Below, piece by piece: positions 2,075 to 9,116 of a stretch of 32,831 nucleotides of DNA. Source of the DNA: a virus; IMG/VR virus record IMGVR_UViG_3300007734_000585, positions 1 to 32,831 of that record. One strand, given 5' to 3'. Position 1 is the first letter of the stretch. Every line of letters starts with the position of its first letter. Below the pieces are notes generated by a model. That model did not search any database, was not told where the DNA came from, and worked only from the letters and a program-made list of their open reading frames with translations. Position numbers and translations under genes: made by a program.

Positions 2075-2309
2075 CGCGAGCTTTCAGCATTGCGTCTGCC
2101 ATCCCATAACAGGCTTCAGCCGCCGCATTTTTTAACTGAGTTGTTTTTTCATCTGAATATGACCTTTTTTGCAATTCAGCAACAACAGAAGGCATGATTA
2201 TTTGCATAGCCTTAGCCGCAAAGTAGTCCCGCAGTGTCATGCCACCCTCAGTTTTTTGTGCCAACGTAGCTGTTGGAAATGCTGGTGGGTTGTTCATGTC
2301 GGCCACCAT
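2061..2309 (-). CDS. Hypothetical phage protein with GMTLRDYFAAKAM motif, 82 aa
   Basis: This is a short soluble protein of unknown function. It contains NNPPAFP near the N-terminus, GGMTLRDYFAAKAMQ in the middle and a helical tail ending CYGMADAMLKAR. That arrangement is widespread among small accessory proteins of Proteobacteria phages; no biochemical role is known to me. The ATG at 2309 shares one base with the stop of the upstream SSB-tip gene (TGATG), which implies translational coupling. The family usually begins at MNNPP, so the ATG at 2297 is a good alternative. Its 3' end overlaps terS. Confidence 0.75.
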   Translation of the reverse strand: MVADMNNPPAFPTATLAQKTEGGMTLRDYFAAKAMQIIMPSVVAELQKRSYSDEKTTQLKNAAAEACYGMADAMLKARDGTG

Positions 2310-2605
2310 CAGAACGGTATATCGTCATCATTGTCTGGCACCACAGCCTTGGGGCTAGGCTGGGGAGCAGCAAACACAGGCGCAGCAGCAGCCACAGGCC
2401 CACCACCACCCGTCTTGGCCTTGCCAACCTTGATCTTGAACCAAACCCCGCCATCAGGCTTCTTGTTGACGTAGATGTCCAAGAAATGCTTGGTGCCATC
2501 AGGCATCACAAACGTGCCCTTGTAGTCACCATGCCACAACTCGGTCTTCTCAGCATTCTTCCAAGCCCTGCCCTCGCTCGGCTTGATCTCATTGTCGTTT
2601 GTCAT
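2309..2605 (-). CDS. Small protein with SSB-like acidic C-terminal tip, 98 aa
   Basis: The start is the ATG at 2605, with AAAGGA about 8 nt upstream; the open frame extends further but that part is not protein-like. Residues about 10-55 are rich in alternating aromatic and charged positions (WKNAEKTELWHGDYKG, then HFLDIYVNKKPDGGVWFKI), consistent with a small beta-barrel such as an OB fold. A Gly/Ala/Pro linker follows. The chain ends NDDDIPF, the same last six residues (DDDIPF) as bacterial single-stranded DNA-binding protein, whose tip recruits repair and replication proteins. I infer an ssDNA-binding or SSB-mimic protein acting with the nearby initiator. The core does not look like classical SSB, so the fold is a guess. 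The stop overlaps the next start (TGATG). Confidence 0.65.
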   Translation of the reverse strand: MTNDNEIKPSEGRAWKNAEKTELWHGDYKGTFVMPDGTKHFLDIYVNKKPDGGVWFKIKVGKAKTGGGGPVAAAAPVFAAPQPSPKAVVPDNDDDIPF

Positions 2606-2976
2606 AAATATGTCCTTTGCATGATTGTCGTTGAAAAAGGGAAAAAAGCCTCCAAGGAAAAAGGAGGGAAAATTTTTGGGGTTCCCCCGACCGCTACCGT
2701 GAGGGGTGGGGGGCAAGGGGTCGCGTTCCGGGCGCGTCGTCGGGCGCGGATCGCCTGCGCGCACGCTGGCGCATATAGGAAGCCTGCCCCGCCAGTAGCC
2801 AGACACCCCTTGATCGGCCAGCCCTGTACAAAATCCATACGTTCGTATGCTGGTTGGACACATCGAATTACAGGCCCTACAACGCACTGACAGGTTGAGT
2901 GGCTACCCTTGCCTAGACCAGCCTGCGATCGTGGCTGGAAGGTTGGTTTCCGTGGCTTGGCGGGGTATCCAATCAT
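2602..2976 (-). CDS. Doubtful 124-aa frame filling the gap between the replication initiator and the SSB-tip gene
   Basis: An open frame fills this otherwise gene-free 367-bp gap. Its ATG overlaps the initiator stop as ATGA, and its stop overlaps the next start as ATGA, which is the coupling style of the neighbours. Against it, the product is almost devoid of acidic residues, rich in Pro, Arg and Cys, has no recognisable domain, and has no convincing ribosome site. The stretch 2690-2830 is clearly more G+C-rich than its surroundings. It may instead be structured non-coding DNA or RNA leader for the downstream gene. The function is unknown in either case. Confidence 0.25.
   Translation of the reverse strand: MIGYPAKPRKPTFQPRSQAGLGKGSHSTCQCVVGPVIRCVQPAYERMDFVQGWPIKGCLATGGAGFLYAPACAQAIRARRRARNATPCPPPLTVAVGGTPKIFPPFSLEAFFPFSTTIMQRTYL
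2836..2849. promoter_or_regulatory. Perfect dyad CATACG-TT-CGTATG, candidate operator
   Basis: A 6+2+6 perfect inverted repeat lies in the gap between the replication initiator and the SSB-tip gene. Its size fits a dimeric repressor or ribbon-helix-helix site. No strong promoter hexamers are adjacent, so the role is inferred only from symmetry and location. Confidence 0.3.
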
Positions 2977-3908
2977 CTGGCATCTGCCTGCAACTGCCTG
3001 ATACCTGCCATCAGGGTGGCTGAGCTGGGTGTGATGCCCTCGGCCTTGTACAGCGGCAGCAGGGTGTCGAGGCAGCTTGCGATCTGCTCGGTCGTTATGC
3101 CGTCACTGACCAGCTGTTCAACTTCTTGATTGCGCAGAACTAACATGTTGTCTTCTTCTTTTAAATGTTTACTTGTTTCATGTTTACTTATTACATGTTG
3201 TCTTAACATGTGTTCTTCTGTGTTTTGCGACACTCCTGAGTGTCCTATTGGTTGCCTATGTAACATGTCTTCATTGGACACTGCTGCGTGTCCTATGTGG
3301 GCATGGTTATCCACAGGCTTGGTGCCCTTGGATTGAGCCTTTTTGATTGCTTCTTTCATGCTCTTGACTGTGATTGTTTCGCCTTGTTTGGGCATGGTTT
3401 TGTACCTCTTGATTGGCTGCTTGAGTACTTTGCTGATTGCTTGGGCGACTCTGCGTTGGCCCTCTGGGTCTGGTTGCTCTGCTTGCATTGCTTGCTCCTC
3501 CTTGATTGCTGGTGGCCTGGTGTCTTCGATGCTGCTGGTGACTGCCATGGCTGTGGCCGCGTCTACTGATTGATCAAAGATGACCCGCAGCGTGTTACAG
3601 CGCTCGCCTCTGAATCCCTTTTTGATGATCTCGACATAGCCTGCAGCCCTGAGTTGCATGAGCTGGTTGGTGACCGCTTGGCGGCTAATGTTGAGGTCTT
3701 TGGCTAGCCTTGCTTGGCTCACCCATGTGATGCCAGCCCGGTTGCAATAGCTGCACAGCACACCCAAGATCCTGATTGACCCATCTGTCAGCGTCTGGTC
3801 TGTCAGCGCCTTGAGCGGCATCACAGCGATCTTGCGTTGGTCTGGCGGCGCGTCCTTCTTGTAGATGCGCGGCTTCTTGGGCAGGGTGAAGTTGACAGGC
3901 TCAGCCAT
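2973..3908 (-). CDS. Winged-helix replication initiator (lambda O-like in role), 311 aa
   Basis: This probably binds the phage origin and recruits host replication proteins. Residues about 30-110 form a winged helix-turn-helix domain: helices around ALTDQTLTDGSIRILGVL, a recognition helix in LNISRQAVTNQL (about 72-83), and a wing rich in basic residues (EIIKKGFRGER). A long polar linker, about residues 110-260, is low in structure and is encoded partly by the repeat cluster at 3143-3315. The C-terminal 50 residues are again helical. This N-terminal DNA-binding, origin-in-gene, C-terminal-recruitment plan is that of lambda O and related initiators. The ATG at 3908 is 5 nt after the upstream stop; a GTG at 3932 would add eight residues. 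No primase or helicase motifs are present. Confidence 0.65.
   Translation of the reverse strand: MAEPVNFTLPKKPRIYKKDAPPDQRKIAVMPLKALTDQTLTDGSIRILGVLCSYCNRAGITWVSQARLAKDLNISRQAVTNQLMQLRAAGYVEIIKKGFRGERCNTLRVIFDQSVDAATAMAVTSSIEDTRPPAIKEEQAMQAEQPDPEGQRRVAQAISKVLKQPIKRYKTMPKQGETITVKSMKEAIKKAQSKGTKPVDNHAHIGHAAVSNEDMLHRQPIGHSGVSQNTEEHMLRQHVISKHETSKHLKEEDNMLVLRNQEVEQLVSDGITTEQIASCLDTLLPLYKAEGITPSSATLMAGIRQLQADAR
3143..3315. other. Origin-like repeat cluster (iterons, dyads, AT-rich stretch, DnaA box) inside the initiator gene
   Basis: Within the initiator gene lie two identical 12-mers ACATGTTGTCTT (3143-3154 and 3193-3204, 50 bp apart) and two variants (3206-3217 and 3263-3272). Two ATGTTTACTT copies sit 15 bp apart (3165 and 3180) in an AT-rich stretch. 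Two related dyads follow, GACACT-N4-AGTGTC (3229-3244) and GGACAC-N6-GTGTCC (3276-3293), each followed by CTAT. A perfect DnaA box lies at 3307-3315. Repeated binding sites, an AT-rich unwinding candidate and a DnaA box are the parts of an iteron-type replication origin. Functional assignment is inference. Confidence 0.65.
3307..3315 (+). promoter_or_regulatory. Perfect DnaA box TTATCCACA
   Basis: The nine bases match the high-affinity R1 DnaA box of Escherichia coli oriC exactly. It sits at the edge of the iteron and dyad cluster, suggesting host DnaA takes part in initiation. A single 9-mer can occur by chance, so the weight comes from the surrounding repeats. Confidence 0.6.
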
Positions 3909-3913
3909 TGCGT

Positions 3914-4207
3914 TCACTTGGATGCCTTCCACAGCTTGGTGACCATGGCTGCCAACTCATTGGCTGACTCTTGGCCACGCTTGTCAATAACCGACATGAT
4001 GTAATCCCTGCGACTGATCTGCGGGGTTGACTTGCGCCTGCGGTTGACCGTAACAGGCAGCTTGTCCAATACCCACTTGGCTTCGGTGTATGCCCTGTAG
4101 GCACTGCTGTAGCTGCCCACCACGGTGCCATCTGGCAGCGTGATGAGCTTGGCATCTGGGTGTACCCTGCCGCATGCCCGGCATGCGAGCTCATCTCCCG
4201 AAGACAC
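3914..4207 (-). CDS. Hypothetical protein with short Cys pair, 97 aa
   Basis: The function is not recognised. The N-terminus carries CRACGRVHPDAKL, a CxxC plus His arrangement that could be half of a zinc ribbon, followed by a beta-like segment (ITLPDGTVVGSYSS). A helical basic C-terminal half ends at the initiator gene. The start is a GTG at 4207, directly after an in-frame TAA, and it overlaps the upstream gene by 17 nt. An ATG at about 4194 belongs to a different frame whose product is not protein-like. The position between a small DNA-binding-like protein and the replication initiator suggests a replication or regulatory accessory. Confidence 0.65.
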   Translation of the reverse strand: MSSGDELACRACGRVHPDAKLITLPDGTVVGSYSSAYRAYTEAKWVLDKLPVTVNRRRKSTPQISRRDYIMSVIDKRGQESANELAAMVTKLWKASK

Positions 4208-4611: not shown

Positions 4612-4709
4612 TCGTGCTCCAAATACTTCAGCATGAGCCACAACACCACAAGCGTGAGCAATGAGCCCAGCAACATAAGTGCGACTACCCAAAAAACAGT
4701 CATCAACAT
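4608..4709 (-). CDS. Single-pass membrane microprotein, 33 aa
   Basis: A 34-codon frame encodes an almost purely hydrophobic peptide (MLMTVFWVVALMLLGSLL, then a second hydrophobic run) with a short polar tail ending KYLEHE. It would span the inner membrane once. The ATG at 4709 is preceded by a perfect GGAGGT Shine-Dalgarno about 6 nt upstream, one of the strongest in the window. Its start lies within the end of the RuvC-like gene, and its stop overlaps the next ATG. The role is unknown; small membrane peptides in early regions can act in superinfection exclusion or membrane modulation, but nothing here shows that. Confidence 0.6.
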   Translation of the reverse strand: MLMTVFWVVALMLLGSLLTLVVLWLMLKYLEHE

Positions 4710-5170
4710 GATTGCACCTCCAATACCCAATGTAAAAGCGCCAGCGCATCTGCCTCATTGTCATCTGTCACCGGGTGGCCACGCAACTGCATGGCAGCAA
4801 CCATGTCTTGCTTGCCGGCGTTGCCCTTGCCCGTCGCATGCTTCTTGATGGTGCCCACCGGCACGCCAGCATATGGCACGTTGTGCAGCTCACACCACGC
4901 CGTTAAGATGGCCATCAGCCCACCGTACACATGCGCCGAGTCTGTGCTGGCATGCCTGCGCACCTCTTCAAAGTAGACGGCCTGCAGCTCGCCACCCAGC
5001 GTGCCTTTGAGCTCGTTGAGCCACGTTTTGAACCGCAAGTACCGCATGCCGCCACCCTCGTACCTGCTGGGCTTAAAGCTGGCCCAGCCATGCACAATGG
5101 TGCCGTCCATGGGCCTGCATGCCCAGCCCGTGGTCGTGCCCAAGTCCAACGCCAAGATGTTCTCATTCAT
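4703..5170 (-). CDS. RuvC-like Holliday junction resolvase / RNase H-fold nuclease, 155 aa
   Basis: This is probably a structure-specific endonuclease that resolves branched replication or recombination intermediates before packaging. Asp9 in ILALDLGTTTG, the acidic pair at 68-69 in VYFEEVRRH, and the C-terminal DDNEADALAL (Asp141) reproduce the catalytic acid pattern of RuvC and poxvirus-type resolvases. A K-K-H-x-T-G-K-G segment (about 109-116) is also typical. The ATG at 5170 has GGAG upstream and overlaps the preceding gene's stop. Its length is normal for RuvC-like phage nucleases. It would fit functionally with the exonuclease and RecT encoded on the other strand. Confidence 0.85.
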   Translation of the reverse strand: MNENILALDLGTTTGWACRPMDGTIVHGWASFKPSRYEGGGMRYLRFKTWLNELKGTLGGELQAVYFEEVRRHASTDSAHVYGGLMAILTAWCELHNVPYAGVPVGTIKKHATGKGNAGKQDMVAAMQLRGHPVTDDNEADALALLHWVLEVQSC

Positions 5171-5288
5171 GGCCGGGCTCCGCAGGCTTGTCGCCCGTGG
5201 CCACCAGCGCCAGCTCAATCAGGTATGGCGGCACCAGCTGGCCATCCCTAACCCTGTCCAACAGCTTGTGTGCTTCTTGTGGTGTCAT
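5163..5288 (-). CDS. Small hypothetical protein, 41 aa
   Basis: A 42-codon frame fills the space between the RHH regulator and the RuvC-like gene. It starts with ATGA overlapping the regulator's stop and ends overlapping the RuvC-like start. The product (MTPQEAHKLLDRVRDGQLVP, then an aliphatic helix and a GDKPAEPGHE tail) resembles short uncharacterised phage peptides of the form EA..LL..VR.G....I..AL..TGD. There is no Shine-Dalgarno; translation is likely coupled. The function is unknown. Confidence 0.5.
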   Translation of the reverse strand: MTPQEAHKLLDRVRDGQLVPPYLIELALVATGDKPAEPGHE

Positions 5289-5841: not shown

Positions 5842-6492
5842 ATGTCCAAATACGTCGCCTACTACCGCGTTTCCACCGACCGCCAAGGCCAGTCAGGCCT
5901 CGGCCTTGATGCCCAGCGTGCAGCTGTGGCCAAGCACATCGCGGCAGCCGAGCTGTTGGCCGAGTTCACCGAGGTCGAGTCTGGCCGCAAGAACGACCGC
6001 GAGCAGTTGGCCGCTGCGCTGGCCACCGCCAAGAAGGCCAAGGCCACTTTGGTGATCGCCAAGCTCGACCGCCTTGCCCGTAACGTCCACTTCATATCTG
6101 GCTTGCTGGAGTCCGGTGTGCCCTTCGTCTGCGCCGACATGCCCGAAGCCGACCGCACCTTCTTGCAAATGATGGCCGTGTTTGCTGAGTGGGAAGCACG
6201 CAAGATCAGCGAGCGCACCAAGTCAGCGCTGGCGCAGGTCAAAGCACAGGGCCGCACCCTTGGCTGCCCAACACCAGAGATCGGCTCAGCCATTGGCGTG
6301 GCCAAGATCCAAGCCAAGGCCGACAAGTACGCTGAGCGCGTTGGCCCTATCGTGCGCGACATCATCACCAAGTCTGGCGCAGACACCATGCGCGACATCG
6401 CAGCAGCCCTGCAAGCACGCGGCGTAACCACACCACGCGGCAACACCAACTGGAACGCCTCTCAGGTGTCCAACCTTCTCAAACGCATTTAA
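5842..6492 (+). CDS. Small serine recombinase (resolvase/invertase family), 216 aa
   Basis: This is a site-specific recombinase that cuts DNA through a serine nucleophile. The N-terminal catalytic domain shows YYRVSTDRQ with Arg9 and nucleophile Ser11, KLDRLAR with Asp76, Arg77 and Arg80, and a long helix MMAVFAEWEARKISERTK (about 110-127). The C-terminal part ends in a DNA-binding helix-turn-helix (DIAAALQARGVTTPRG, then WNASQVSNLL). At 216 residues it is the size of resolvases and invertases, far shorter than the 450-600 residue phage integrases. GGAGG lies 7 nt upstream of the ATG. It could resolve genome multimers, invert a segment or act as a minimal integrase; no crossover site is evident. 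It is the only integrase candidate in the genome. Confidence 0.9.
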   Translation: MSKYVAYYRVSTDRQGQSGLGLDAQRAAVAKHIAAAELLAEFTEVESGRKNDREQLAAALATAKKAKATLVIAKLDRLARNVHFISGLLESGVPFVCADMPEADRTFLQMMAVFAEWEARKISERTKSALAQVKAQGRTLGCPTPEIGSAIGVAKIQAKADKYAERVGPIVRDIITKSGADTMRDIAAALQARGVTTPRGNTNWNASQVSNLLKRI

Positions 6493-6710: not shown

Positions 6711-6991
6711 AGGTTGGCCAGATCATCCGGGACGCGCAGCTCGACCTGTTTGAGCAGCGCGATGCCGACTTCTTGGCACGGTGCCGGGCGGTTGCAGCCG
6801 AGGTCTGCCGCCAGCATGGCAGCGTCAGCATCAATGATGTGCGCGAGCGGGTTCAGCTCCCTGCGCACCTCCACCCATCTGTTCTGGGCGCGGTATTTCG
6901 CACCAAGCAGTTCGTCAAGGTTGGCCTTGTTGAGGCCAATCATCCCCAAGCGCATGCCAGAGTGGTGCGTGTTTATCAATTACAGGAGTAA
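6707..6991 (+). CDS. Winged-helix-like hypothetical phage protein, 94 aa
   Basis: The product starts MKVGQIIRDAQLDLFEQRDA and contains a helix-rich middle (FLARCRAVAAEVCRQHGSVS) followed by VRERVQLPAHLHPSVLGAVF and a beta-like end. The PAHLHPSVLGAVFR segment with following VRVYQL is shared by a family of small phage proteins of unknown function and looks like a winged-helix domain. It begins within the stop of the membrane protein and ends 4 nt before the exonuclease gene. A link with recombination is suggested only by its neighbours. Confidence 0.65.
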   Translation: MKVGQIIRDAQLDLFEQRDADFLARCRAVAAEVCRQHGSVSINDVRERVQLPAHLHPSVLGAVFRTKQFVKVGLVEANHPQAHARVVRVYQLQE

Positions 6992-6995
6992 AAAA

Positions 6996-7952
6996 ATGGC
7001 AGGCAAACTGACCGACGACAAATCAATGAGCGCCTCGCGCTTGCCCGGCCTCATGGGCTTCAGCAAATACAGCACACCCAATGATGAGCTGCAGTTCAGC
7101 ATCAACGCCATTGATGGCAAAGAGCGGCCTGACATTGGCAATGAAGCCATGGGCTGGGGCAATACGCTGGAGCCCGTGATCCTGACAGAAGCAGCCAAGC
7201 GCTTGGGGCTCACCGAGTTTGACACCCAGATCGACAGAGCCTACACACACAACGCCTTTCCCCTGTCGTGCAGCTTGGATGGCATCGGCTTTGGTCTTGG
7301 CCAAGAGATCAGCACCGACCCGGACAAGGGCTTGTATGTGGTTGGCCAAGACACCATTGTGCTCAACGGGCCCGGCGTGCTGGAAGCCAAGCTCACCAAG
7401 ACCATGCCCGAAGATGTGCCCCACCTCGCACGCGGCCCCATCCAACTGCAAGGCCAGATGCTGATCACCGGCCACAAGTGGGGCGCAGTCTGCGTGCTGT
7501 ACCAAGGCATTGAGCTGCGGGTCTTCCTGTTTGCGCCGCATGATGAAACCCAAAAGGCCATCATCAAAGCCGTGCTAGCCTTTGAGCACAAGTTGCAGGC
7601 CTACCGCAAGTTTGGCGTAATCGACTGGTACCCGCCAGAGTCAAGCAAGGAGATGGATCGCATCTACCCGCAGGCCGTGGCCAAGGAAGAGATCAGCCTC
7701 GACATGCAGGCCGAGCGCTTGGCCGAGCAGCTGCTGGCTGCCAAGTCTGTCATCCGCGAAGCCGAGGCCACCATTGACAACTGCGAAAAACAAATCAAAG
7801 AACTGATGGGTCAGGCTGAGCGTGGCCGAGCTGGCCGCTATGTGATCAACTGGCCCATGCGCAACTACAAGGCAGCGCCAGAGCGTTTGGTGCCAGCCAA
7901 GGAAGCCTACAGCATTCGCCAGTCCACATTGACCATCAAGGAGCAGCCTTGA
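6996..7952 (+). CDS. YqaJ-type (lambda-exonuclease-like) 5'-3' exonuclease, 318 aa
   Basis: This would resect double-strand ends to leave 3' single strands for the annealing protein RecT, encoded two genes downstream. The PD-(D/E)XK core is visible: GWGNTLEPVI (Glu59), SLDG (Asp95), LEAKLTK (Glu130 and Lys132) and QLQGQM (Gln152). The C-terminal 100 residues include a helical region (about 230-275), perhaps used for oligomerisation. The start is the ATG at 6996 with AGGAG seven bases upstream; the frame is open further left but overlaps the previous gene. The stop overlaps the next start (TTGA). Confidence 0.88.
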   Translation: MAGKLTDDKSMSASRLPGLMGFSKYSTPNDELQFSINAIDGKERPDIGNEAMGWGNTLEPVILTEAAKRLGLTEFDTQIDRAYTHNAFPLSCSLDGIGFGLGQEISTDPDKGLYVVGQDTIVLNGPGVLEAKLTKTMPEDVPHLARGPIQLQGQMLITGHKWGAVCVLYQGIELRVFLFAPHDETQKAIIKAVLAFEHKLQAYRKFGVIDWYPPESSKEMDRIYPQAVAKEEISLDMQAERLAEQLLAAKSVIREAEATIDNCEKQIKELMGQAERGRAGRYVINWPMRNYKAAPERLVPAKEAYSIRQSTLTIKEQP

Positions 7953-8134
7953 ACCTACAGGGCAGGCCAGATATTGAGCGTGCCTACGACGCAGCTGTGG
8001 TGGCCATGCTCAACGCCACCGGCTGCACCGAACCACAGGCCGAAACCTTTGTCGAGGCCATGGCCAATTTGATTTTCACCACCATGCAAACCTACTTAAC
8101 CGAGAGAGATCCAAATGGAATTAACCACCACTAA
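7949..8134 (+). CDS. Hypothetical protein between the exonuclease and RecT genes, 61 aa
   Basis: A TTG start at 7949 with AAGGAG five bases upstream overlaps the exonuclease stop by 4 nt, and the stop overlaps recT by 20 nt. The product is a mostly helical, acidic protein (IERAYDAAVVAMLNATG, then QAETFVEAMANLIFTTMQTY). It has no known domain. The tight placement between recombination genes suggests a recombination accessory, but nothing in the sequence shows it. Confidence 0.55.
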   Translation: MNLQGRPDIERAYDAAVVAMLNATGCTEPQAETFVEAMANLIFTTMQTYLTERDPNGINHH

Positions 8135-9116
8135 CCGAGGCTTTGCGCCAGCAACCCTCACCGAGGCCATCCAATTCAGTGACATGCTGTCCAGCTCCAG
8201 CATGGTGCCCAAGGCCTACCAAGGCAAGCCCCAAGACATTCTGGTGTGCGTGCAGTGGGGCTACGAAATGGGACTGGCACCCATGCAGGCGCTGCAGAAT
8301 ATCGCGGTGATCAACGGCAAGCCTAGCGTGTACGGCGATGCAATGATGGCGCTGGTACAGGCCAGCCCAGTCTGCGAAGACGTTGAAGAATATTTCGAGA
8401 ACGAAGGCACACCTAACCCGGTGGCCGTCTGCATTGCCAAGCGAAAAAATCGCAAGCCAGTGGTTGCCAAGTTCAGCGTCGAGGATGCCAAGCGAGCTGG
8501 CCTGTGGGGCAAGCAGGGCCCATGGTCGGCGTATCCCAAGCGCATGATGCAAATGCGTGCTCGCGGCTTTGCGCTGCGCGATGCCTTTCCTGATGTGCTC
8601 AAGGGCTTGATCAGTGCCGAGGAGGCAGCAGACTATCCTGACGAAGCCAAGCCCCGGCCAGTGGCCAAGCCAGCCAACCCGTTGGACATGGTGGCCAAGG
8701 CCGATCCGGTGGCCATACCCGTGCAGACCAGCGACCCCGTCATCATTGAGGCCGCGCTGGCCGATACGGTTGAGCCGCAGTTGGAAGACTTTGCTACAGC
8801 TACAGTTGCTACAGTTGCTACAGATGGGGTAGGTGTAGCAGAGCAGCCCATCGGGTATGCCTTGATGGTGCCCGGCAAGGAAGAGGCTTTCTCAGTGCAT
8901 CAGAGCTTGGATGAGTGGGCAGATGCATACGAAGATCTGGCTGACAAGACTGCTAGAGCTGGAAAGCGTCCAGCCCGTGAGCGAATGACCGCATTGAAGG
9001 AGCTGCGATTGGTCAACCAAGACACCATCGGACGCATTGACATGGTCAAGCGTATCAGGCACACAGCTAGCTACACCCAGCGCATCAAAGCGCTGGGTGC
9101 ATCGCAGCAGGGTTAA
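8115..9116 (+). CDS. recT: RecT-family single-strand annealing protein, 333 aa
   Basis: RecT-type proteins coat 3' single strands produced by the partner exonuclease and anneal them to complementary DNA, serving phage recombination and concatemer formation. The first 175 residues show the family features: MVPKAYQGKPQDILVCVQWG, EMGLAPMQALQNIAVINGKP, and GPWSAYPKRMMQMRARGFAL. Residues about 180-240 form a Pro/Ala/Thr-rich linker containing a short DNA repeat. The last 90 residues are a separate helical region that may bind partners. The ATG has a GAGAGA-type weak ribosome site, and the gene overlaps the previous one. It is the last rightward gene; its stop overlaps the stop of the endolysin gene on the other strand. 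Confidence 0.88.
   Translation: MELTTTNRGFAPATLTEAIQFSDMLSSSSMVPKAYQGKPQDILVCVQWGYEMGLAPMQALQNIAVINGKPSVYGDAMMALVQASPVCEDVEEYFENEGTPNPVAVCIAKRKNRKPVVAKFSVEDAKRAGLWGKQGPWSAYPKRMMQMRARGFALRDAFPDVLKGLISAEEAADYPDEAKPRPVAKPANPLDMVAKADPVAIPVQTSDPVIIEAALADTVEPQLEDFATATVATVATDGVGVAEQPIGYALMVPGKEEAFSVHQSLDEWADAYEDLADKTARAGKRPARERMTALKELRLVNQDTIGRIDMVKRIRHTASYTQRIKALGASQQG
8791..8823 (+). repeat. Short tandem repeat TTGCTACAG in the recT linker
   Basis: Three TTGCTACAG units, interrupted after the first by a 6-bp CTACAG partial unit, encode an Ala-Thr-Val-rich stretch. Copy number could vary by slippage in frame (9 bp and 6 bp), changing linker length without breaking the protein. Confidence 0.7.

Follow-up and report, generated by a model that had tools for sequence, protein, structure and literature searches.

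The placing of an origin of replication within the gene for its own initiator is already known, from the O gene of phage lambda and from plasmid pSK41. In lambda the iterons within O are 19-bp imperfect inverted repeats, and the minimal unwinding unit consists of two iterons and the AT tract (PMC7466680). In pSK41, a RepA_N plasmid, the origin boxes lie in the linker of rep, and this linker is dispensable as protein (PMC5703833). Two further systems bear on specificity. In PLE satellites, RepA's DNA-binding domain covaries with the origin and the two are mutually specific (PMC8263062). pPR9, a chimeric staphylococcal plasmid initiator, has an HTH_36 (PF13730) domain resembling a phage replication protein and comes with a distinct origin segment of its own (PMC5703833).

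Here we describe a 319-residue initiator encoded by an uncultured virus, in a stretch of 32,831 nucleotides (IMG/VR record IMGVR_UViG_3300007734_000585), hereafter the window. A cluster of DNA elements inside the initiator gene is very likely the replication origin of this phage, built along the lines of the lambda origin (Table 1). As in lambda O, the putative origin lies, judged by position and conservation, between the parts of the gene encoding the DNA-binding and C-terminal domains; the predicted iterons are likewise imperfect inverted repeats of ~18-19 bp whose sequence is coupled to the initiator, binding being predicted here; and an AT-rich tract again lies on the C-terminal side of the iterons, both in the window and in the profile of its family. 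A dyad scan run on lambda as a control recovered the lambda iterons. The window differs from lambda in having two dyads 48 bp apart rather than four iterons at 20-24 bp, in using a different word, in carrying a DnaA box inside the cluster, and in that the scan of the flanking genes recognised no P-like loader. The likeness between the two initiators is distant, being expressed in matches to O-like PHROG families at E about 5e-7.

With the RepA_N initiators the window protein shares a winged-helix N-terminal domain; unlike them, it has no match to RepA_N (PF06970) among its Pfam matches up to E 0.1. The exchanges described for RepA_N and PLE comprise whole domains together with the origin, whereas in the present family a change may involve no more than the recognition helix and the dyads; the origin of PLE is external to the gene rather than within it. 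pPR9 shares its Pfam domain with the window initiator and differs in possessing the C-terminal domain of pSK41; no residue-to-base relation for it was encountered in PMC5703833. A relation at the level of single residues between the helix and the word of the origin, extending over a large natural family, is apparently unreported in the open-access literature, of which part was covered.

The closest cultured relative of the window is the Methylophilales phage MEP301 (an OM43 phage), with a portal protein 73% identical and an initiator domain 38% identical, and the two share the neighbouring SSB-like gene. The MEP301 initiator has 201 residues and the helix TAPSVSRQ, and a scan of its gene gave neither a perfect dyad with 7-bp arms nor a DnaA box. 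Among the cultured phages searched, a similar initiator occurs in MEP301 only, without in-gene dyads; the bacterial genomes searched for close relatives gave one distant match, and the plasmids gave weak domain matches only.

Table 1. Positions in the window of the initiator gene, its encoded domains, the elements of the putative origin and the neighbouring SSB-like gene
Feature	Position	Strand	Basis or remark
Initiator gene, 319 aa, GTG start	2973..3932	-	HTH_36 match, PHROG families, AlphaFold model
Winged-helix DNA-binding domain, residues 41-117	3582..3812	-	Pfam and AlphaFold; weak Foldseek neighbours RepA NTD 4pt7/4pql
Start of recognition helix, SRQAVTNQ, residues 83-90	3663..3686	-	AlphaFold helix 84-97; helix class predicts dyad word
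Predicted disordered linker, residues 202-263, codons carry putative origin	3144..3329	-	pLDDT below 50
C-terminal three-helix domain, residues 268-318	2979..3131	-	pLDDT about 93
Dyad (predicted iteron) 1, GGACAC-N6-GTGTCC	3276-3293		Position and symmetry conserved across family
Dyad (predicted iteron) 2, GACACTC-N2-GAGTGTC core, one mismatched end	3228-3245		48 bp from dyad 1
Perfect DnaA box, TTATCCACA, codes for VDN in initiator	3307-3315	+	Sole TTWTNCACA of window, either strand
AT-rich stretch beside dyad 2, probable DNA unwinding element	3141..3225		Contains 12-mers (3143, 3193) and 10-mers (3165, 3180)
Small SSB-like protein gene, 97 aa, ends DDDIPF, next to initiator	2309..2602	-	39% identical to MEP301 gp50 (annotated ssDNA-binding)

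The initiator and the elements within its gene

The initiator scores 35.8 bits against HTH_36 (PF13730), above the Pfam cut-off of 25, and gives weak matches (E 5e-7) to PHROG families of replication initiation and O-like proteins. An AlphaFold model derived from a 38-sequence alignment (mean pLDDT 67) comprises the winged helix and a confident helical domain at residues 268-318. The recognition helix spans residues 84-97, which places R84 and N89 at its start, and we infer from the sequence comparisons below that these are the specificity residues of the window initiator. Searched with Foldseek against the PDB, the model weakly resembles winged helices of the MarR/CodY type and the N-terminal domains of plasmid RepA initiators (E about 0.008 for RepA); against predicted viral structures it finds phage HTH proteins, one of them a putative O protein. 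A PDB search by sequence returned generic winged helices. By likeness to lambda O and the RepA_N initiators, the C-terminal helical domain probably recruits the replisome. An internal start codon for this domain (at EEDNM) was considered and dropped, the Met not being conserved.

Read in the sense of the gene, the elements follow in the order DnaA box TGTGGATAA, dyad GGACACGCAGCAGTGTCC, dyad GACACTCAGGAGTGTC, AT-rich stretch with 12-mers and 10-mers, and C-terminal domain. The core of dyad 2 (GACACTCCTGAGTGTC) occupies 3229-3244 of its 18-bp register, and the two dyad centres are 48 bp apart. Two exact copies of the 12-mer ACATGTTGTCTT, at an interval of 50 bp, lie at 3143-3154 and 3193-3204, and variants of its core at 3205 and 3262; the 10-mer ATGTTTACTT is found at 3165-3174 and 3180-3189, 15 bp apart. 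No other 150 bp of the window is as AT-rich as 3121-3270. A first-pass annotation of this DNA had gathered the repeats, two dyads and a perfect DnaA box within 175 bp of a gene for a winged-helix protein, and each element was recovered where it had been placed, the fold of the protein agreeing with the HTH_36 score. The same holds for the T7-like particle (portal matching phrog_332, tail genes phrog_376 and phrog_394) and for the 32,704-bp circle, the 127-bp terminal repeat having been confirmed. Its proposal that the linker peptide is partly dictated by the repeats agrees with the low pLDDT (below 50) of residues 202-263.

As a test against chance, synonymous codons were resampled over codons 190-280 of the window initiator. 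The window has three dyads where 0.47 are expected (P 0.006), a longest direct repeat of 12 where 8.4 is expected (P 0.005) and 13 repeated 8-mers where 2.3 are expected, a number reached in none of 5000 resamplings; for the DnaA box P was 0.017. This excess indicates that the dyads, the direct repeat, the 8-mers and the DnaA box are present beyond what the peptide dictates.

Relatives were taken from IMG/VR as a set of 30 with the window protein, two sets of 80 with family alignments and a third set that extended to less closely related members. In about 130 of them, two or three dyads of ~18 bp occur at the equivalent place; an AT-rich stretch comes after them, and a DnaA box is often present as well. 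Every main lineage examined has two or three dyads in its linker, in a word specific to the lineage. In L002, the nearest full-length relative, the dyads and DnaA box match those of the window letter for letter, the recognition helix is identical and the remainder of the DNA-binding domain is 97% identical; codons 200-236 show no synonymous change between the two, against 26 in the 195 codons of the core. Alignment to relatives, which had been put forward as a check for conservation beyond coding, thus finds the dyads and the DnaA box kept beyond the needs of the protein.

In place of window positions 3141-3225, L002 has an unrelated AT-rich sequence swapped into a gene that is otherwise ~90% identical. 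The replacement brings a long inverted repeat of its own, ATACTAGTA-N7-TACTAGTAT, and its AT-rich part lies ~50 nt past the second dyad. CTAGTA repeats similar to those of L002 occur in L046 and L048.

The 136 family genes contain 69 perfect DnaA boxes, where 3.4 are expected from coding, and the VDN peptide is spelled TGTGGATAA in 55 of 120 family cases. The place of the box relative to the dyads varies, and since only 61 of the 136 genes possess a perfect one, the use of DnaA may be optional. Across the family, AT content climbs from ~50% to a peak of 73%, reached 40-60 bp beyond the last dyad, before falling below 40%. An AT peak and enriched DnaA boxes are the neighbours expected of an origin. 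Cumulative GC skew, which had been suggested as a marker, did not point to this site: its extremes lie at 13.5 kb (the minimum) and 1.0 kb, with none near 3.2 kb. In a mosaic phage such a profile provides neither strong support for an origin at 3.2 kb nor strong refutation of it.

Recognition helix and dyad word

The word of the dyads tracks the sequence with which the recognition helix begins, [ST]-X2-Q-x-[VI]-x-X7, where X2 and X7 are R84 and N89 in the window. The rule pairs R,N at X2,X7 with the half-site GGACAC, R,K with GCAACC, Q,K with ACAACC and K,K with TCAACC. It was fixed from the first loci before more were fetched; of 68 new non-redundant proteins then obtained, 64 fell within the rule and 62 of these were predicted correctly (QK 44/44, RK 7/7, KK 7/7, RN 4/6), against 44 of 64 if the commonest word is guessed every time, the held-out proteins being relatives of the training proteins. 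The two RN misses are L149, which is truncated before the linker, and L245, a true exception whose helix SRQAISNQ is accompanied by GGTCAGCC/GTTGCG-like sites.

Training and test loci pooled give 221 exact dyads in 131 genes, with no off-diagonal entry in the table of helix by word and 7.0 dyads predicted by synonymous resampling (as regards INDEPENDENCE, because the family proteins are related, such counts are not independent events). In control comparisons specified with the rule, predicted half-sites reach 18.7 per kb in the linkers, compared with 0.63 in the N-terminal coding DNA and 0.68 in the flanks; the corresponding densities of dyads are 5.57, 0 and 0.002 per kb. The spacing of the half-sites follows the helix subtype, being 4 bp with QAVAKQ (75 of 77 dyads), always 6 bp with TN helices and 5 bp with SQQAIGKQ.

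Helices with R at X7 (TRQAVGRQ, SRQAITRQ) stand outside the rule and are found with half-sites of the GCAACA/GCAACC type, so that R at X2 still pairs with G. A further helix, AKQQVARA of L250, is found with GACAACA half-sites and does not follow the K-to-T pairing. The pairings of R with G and of Q with A are classical among amino acid-base contacts.

The dyads are conserved DNA elements tied to residues 84 and 89, as cognate sites would be, and the link between helix and word strongly supports their prediction as binding sites of the initiator. We consider it likely that a nearly digital code operates in this large family of uncultured podoviruses, in which residue 84 (R/Q/K) corresponds to the outer base (G/A/T), residue 89 (N/K) to the inner GACAC/CAACC and the helix subtype to a spacing of 4, 5 or 6 bp, and in which lineages repeatedly switch the helix and the in-gene origin together, giving rise to origin-specificity groups.

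Function of the dyads

From the link between helix and word it follows only that the protein ought to bind the dyads, and many of its nearest folds are transcription repressors. The dyads could, accordingly, be cognate winged-helix sites that work as autoregulatory operators or in a partition-like role, and not as an origin. We regard this as improbable given that they are situated well inside the coding region and not at a promoter, with no promoter-like site found in the gene, that the AT-rich tract and DnaA boxes adjoin them, and that the gene itself matches replication initiator families and neighbours the SSB-like gene in a region of recombination and replication functions.

The first-pass annotation had envisaged a lambda O-like origin in different words, with the 12-mers ACATGTTGTCTT as its iterons, which would leave the dyads secondary. 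The lambda-like layout is supported; the assignment of the iterons is not. Exact copies 50 bp apart and additional variants do exceed what coding in the window requires, but one copy lies within the codons of the conserved KEEDNM segment, and the AT-rich segment of L002, a relative with the same helix, differs from that of the window and is without the 12-mers. The ACATGTT core is altogether absent from 114 of 136 family genes. This absence, together with the pattern in L002, identifies the dyad and not the 12-mer as the conserved element, and makes it very improbable that the 12-mers are the sites of the initiator; by this comparison of relatives, the predicted initiator-binding iterons are the two ~18-bp dyads. 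That the dyads are RNA hairpins (an attenuator or terminator) or a by-product of a repeated peptide is scarcely credible, for in spite of a terminator-like score for one dyad and repeats in the linker peptides, nearly all dyads vanish on synonymous resampling, many half-sites stand alone and the choice of word depends on the DNA-recognition helix, encoded some 130 codons from the dyads.

If the cluster is the replication origin, as we favor, replication would start at this site in the following manner. A dimer of the initiator would bind each ~18-bp dyad through its winged-helix recognition helices, the bound dyads sitting in the codons of the disordered linker of the initiator itself. Host DnaA would probably assist from the adjacent box, the AT-rich tract neighbouring the dyads would open, and the C-terminal helical domain may then recruit the host replication machinery or helicase. 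Recruitment from the host is proposed because the genes examined include no recognised polymerase, helicase or loader of the phage's own.

Switches of specificity and genomic surroundings

In a tree from which the recognition helix was left out, the helix class changes at least 16 times and the word at least 13 times, with only about five changes forced by strongly supported branches. Formal tests of independent pairs on such branches provide two pairs for each residue, and every pair agrees with expectation. Support for the joint switching is, therefore, strong in pattern and limited in the number of independent events.

A close pair of relatives allows the extent of one difference to be seen. 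L182 has the helix TQQAISKH and the word ACAACC, and L184 the helix SRQAITNQ and the word GGACAC. Compared along the gene, their nucleotides are 92% identical ahead of the helix, 69% within it, 87% from the helix to the origin, 39% in the dyad region and 83% thereafter. Two separated patches thus differ together, a pattern that a single contiguous exchange does not easily account for; it could reflect two exchanges, or selection acting on both patches. Exchange of whole domains as the sole route of switching is disfavoured since the DNA between helix and dyads is well conserved in this pair.

How initiator and origin specificity can change jointly without loss of function is an open question for which few natural series exist. 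The present family offers over 120 natural variants that use four main words, and includes close pairs (L182 and L184, for example), which makes the evolution of specificity directly testable. As origin and initiator occupy one gene, every change must also preserve the reading frame. Furthermore, the rule relating helix to word offers a route, by sequence only, to the origins of uncultured phages of this group.

The product of the SSB-like gene beside the initiator has an SSB-like tail on a small fold and no Pfam or PHROG match. A short serine recombinase of 216 residues (5842-6492, + strand), comprising a resolvase domain and the start of a recombinase domain, has a similar gene in MEP301. 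Genes for a YqaJ-type exonuclease, a RecT-like annealing protein and a RuvC-like resolvase are located at 6714-9116 (+) and 4703-5218 (-). The presence of recombination genes without a recognised phage polymerase or helicase suggests the use of the host replisome and recombination-dependent replication. Between 11000 and 13500, a segment that contains the skew minimum at 13.5 kb, GC content is about 43-46%, compared with about 56% elsewhere in the window; by position this segment probably holds the tail-fibre genes, and it is possibly a recent acquisition.
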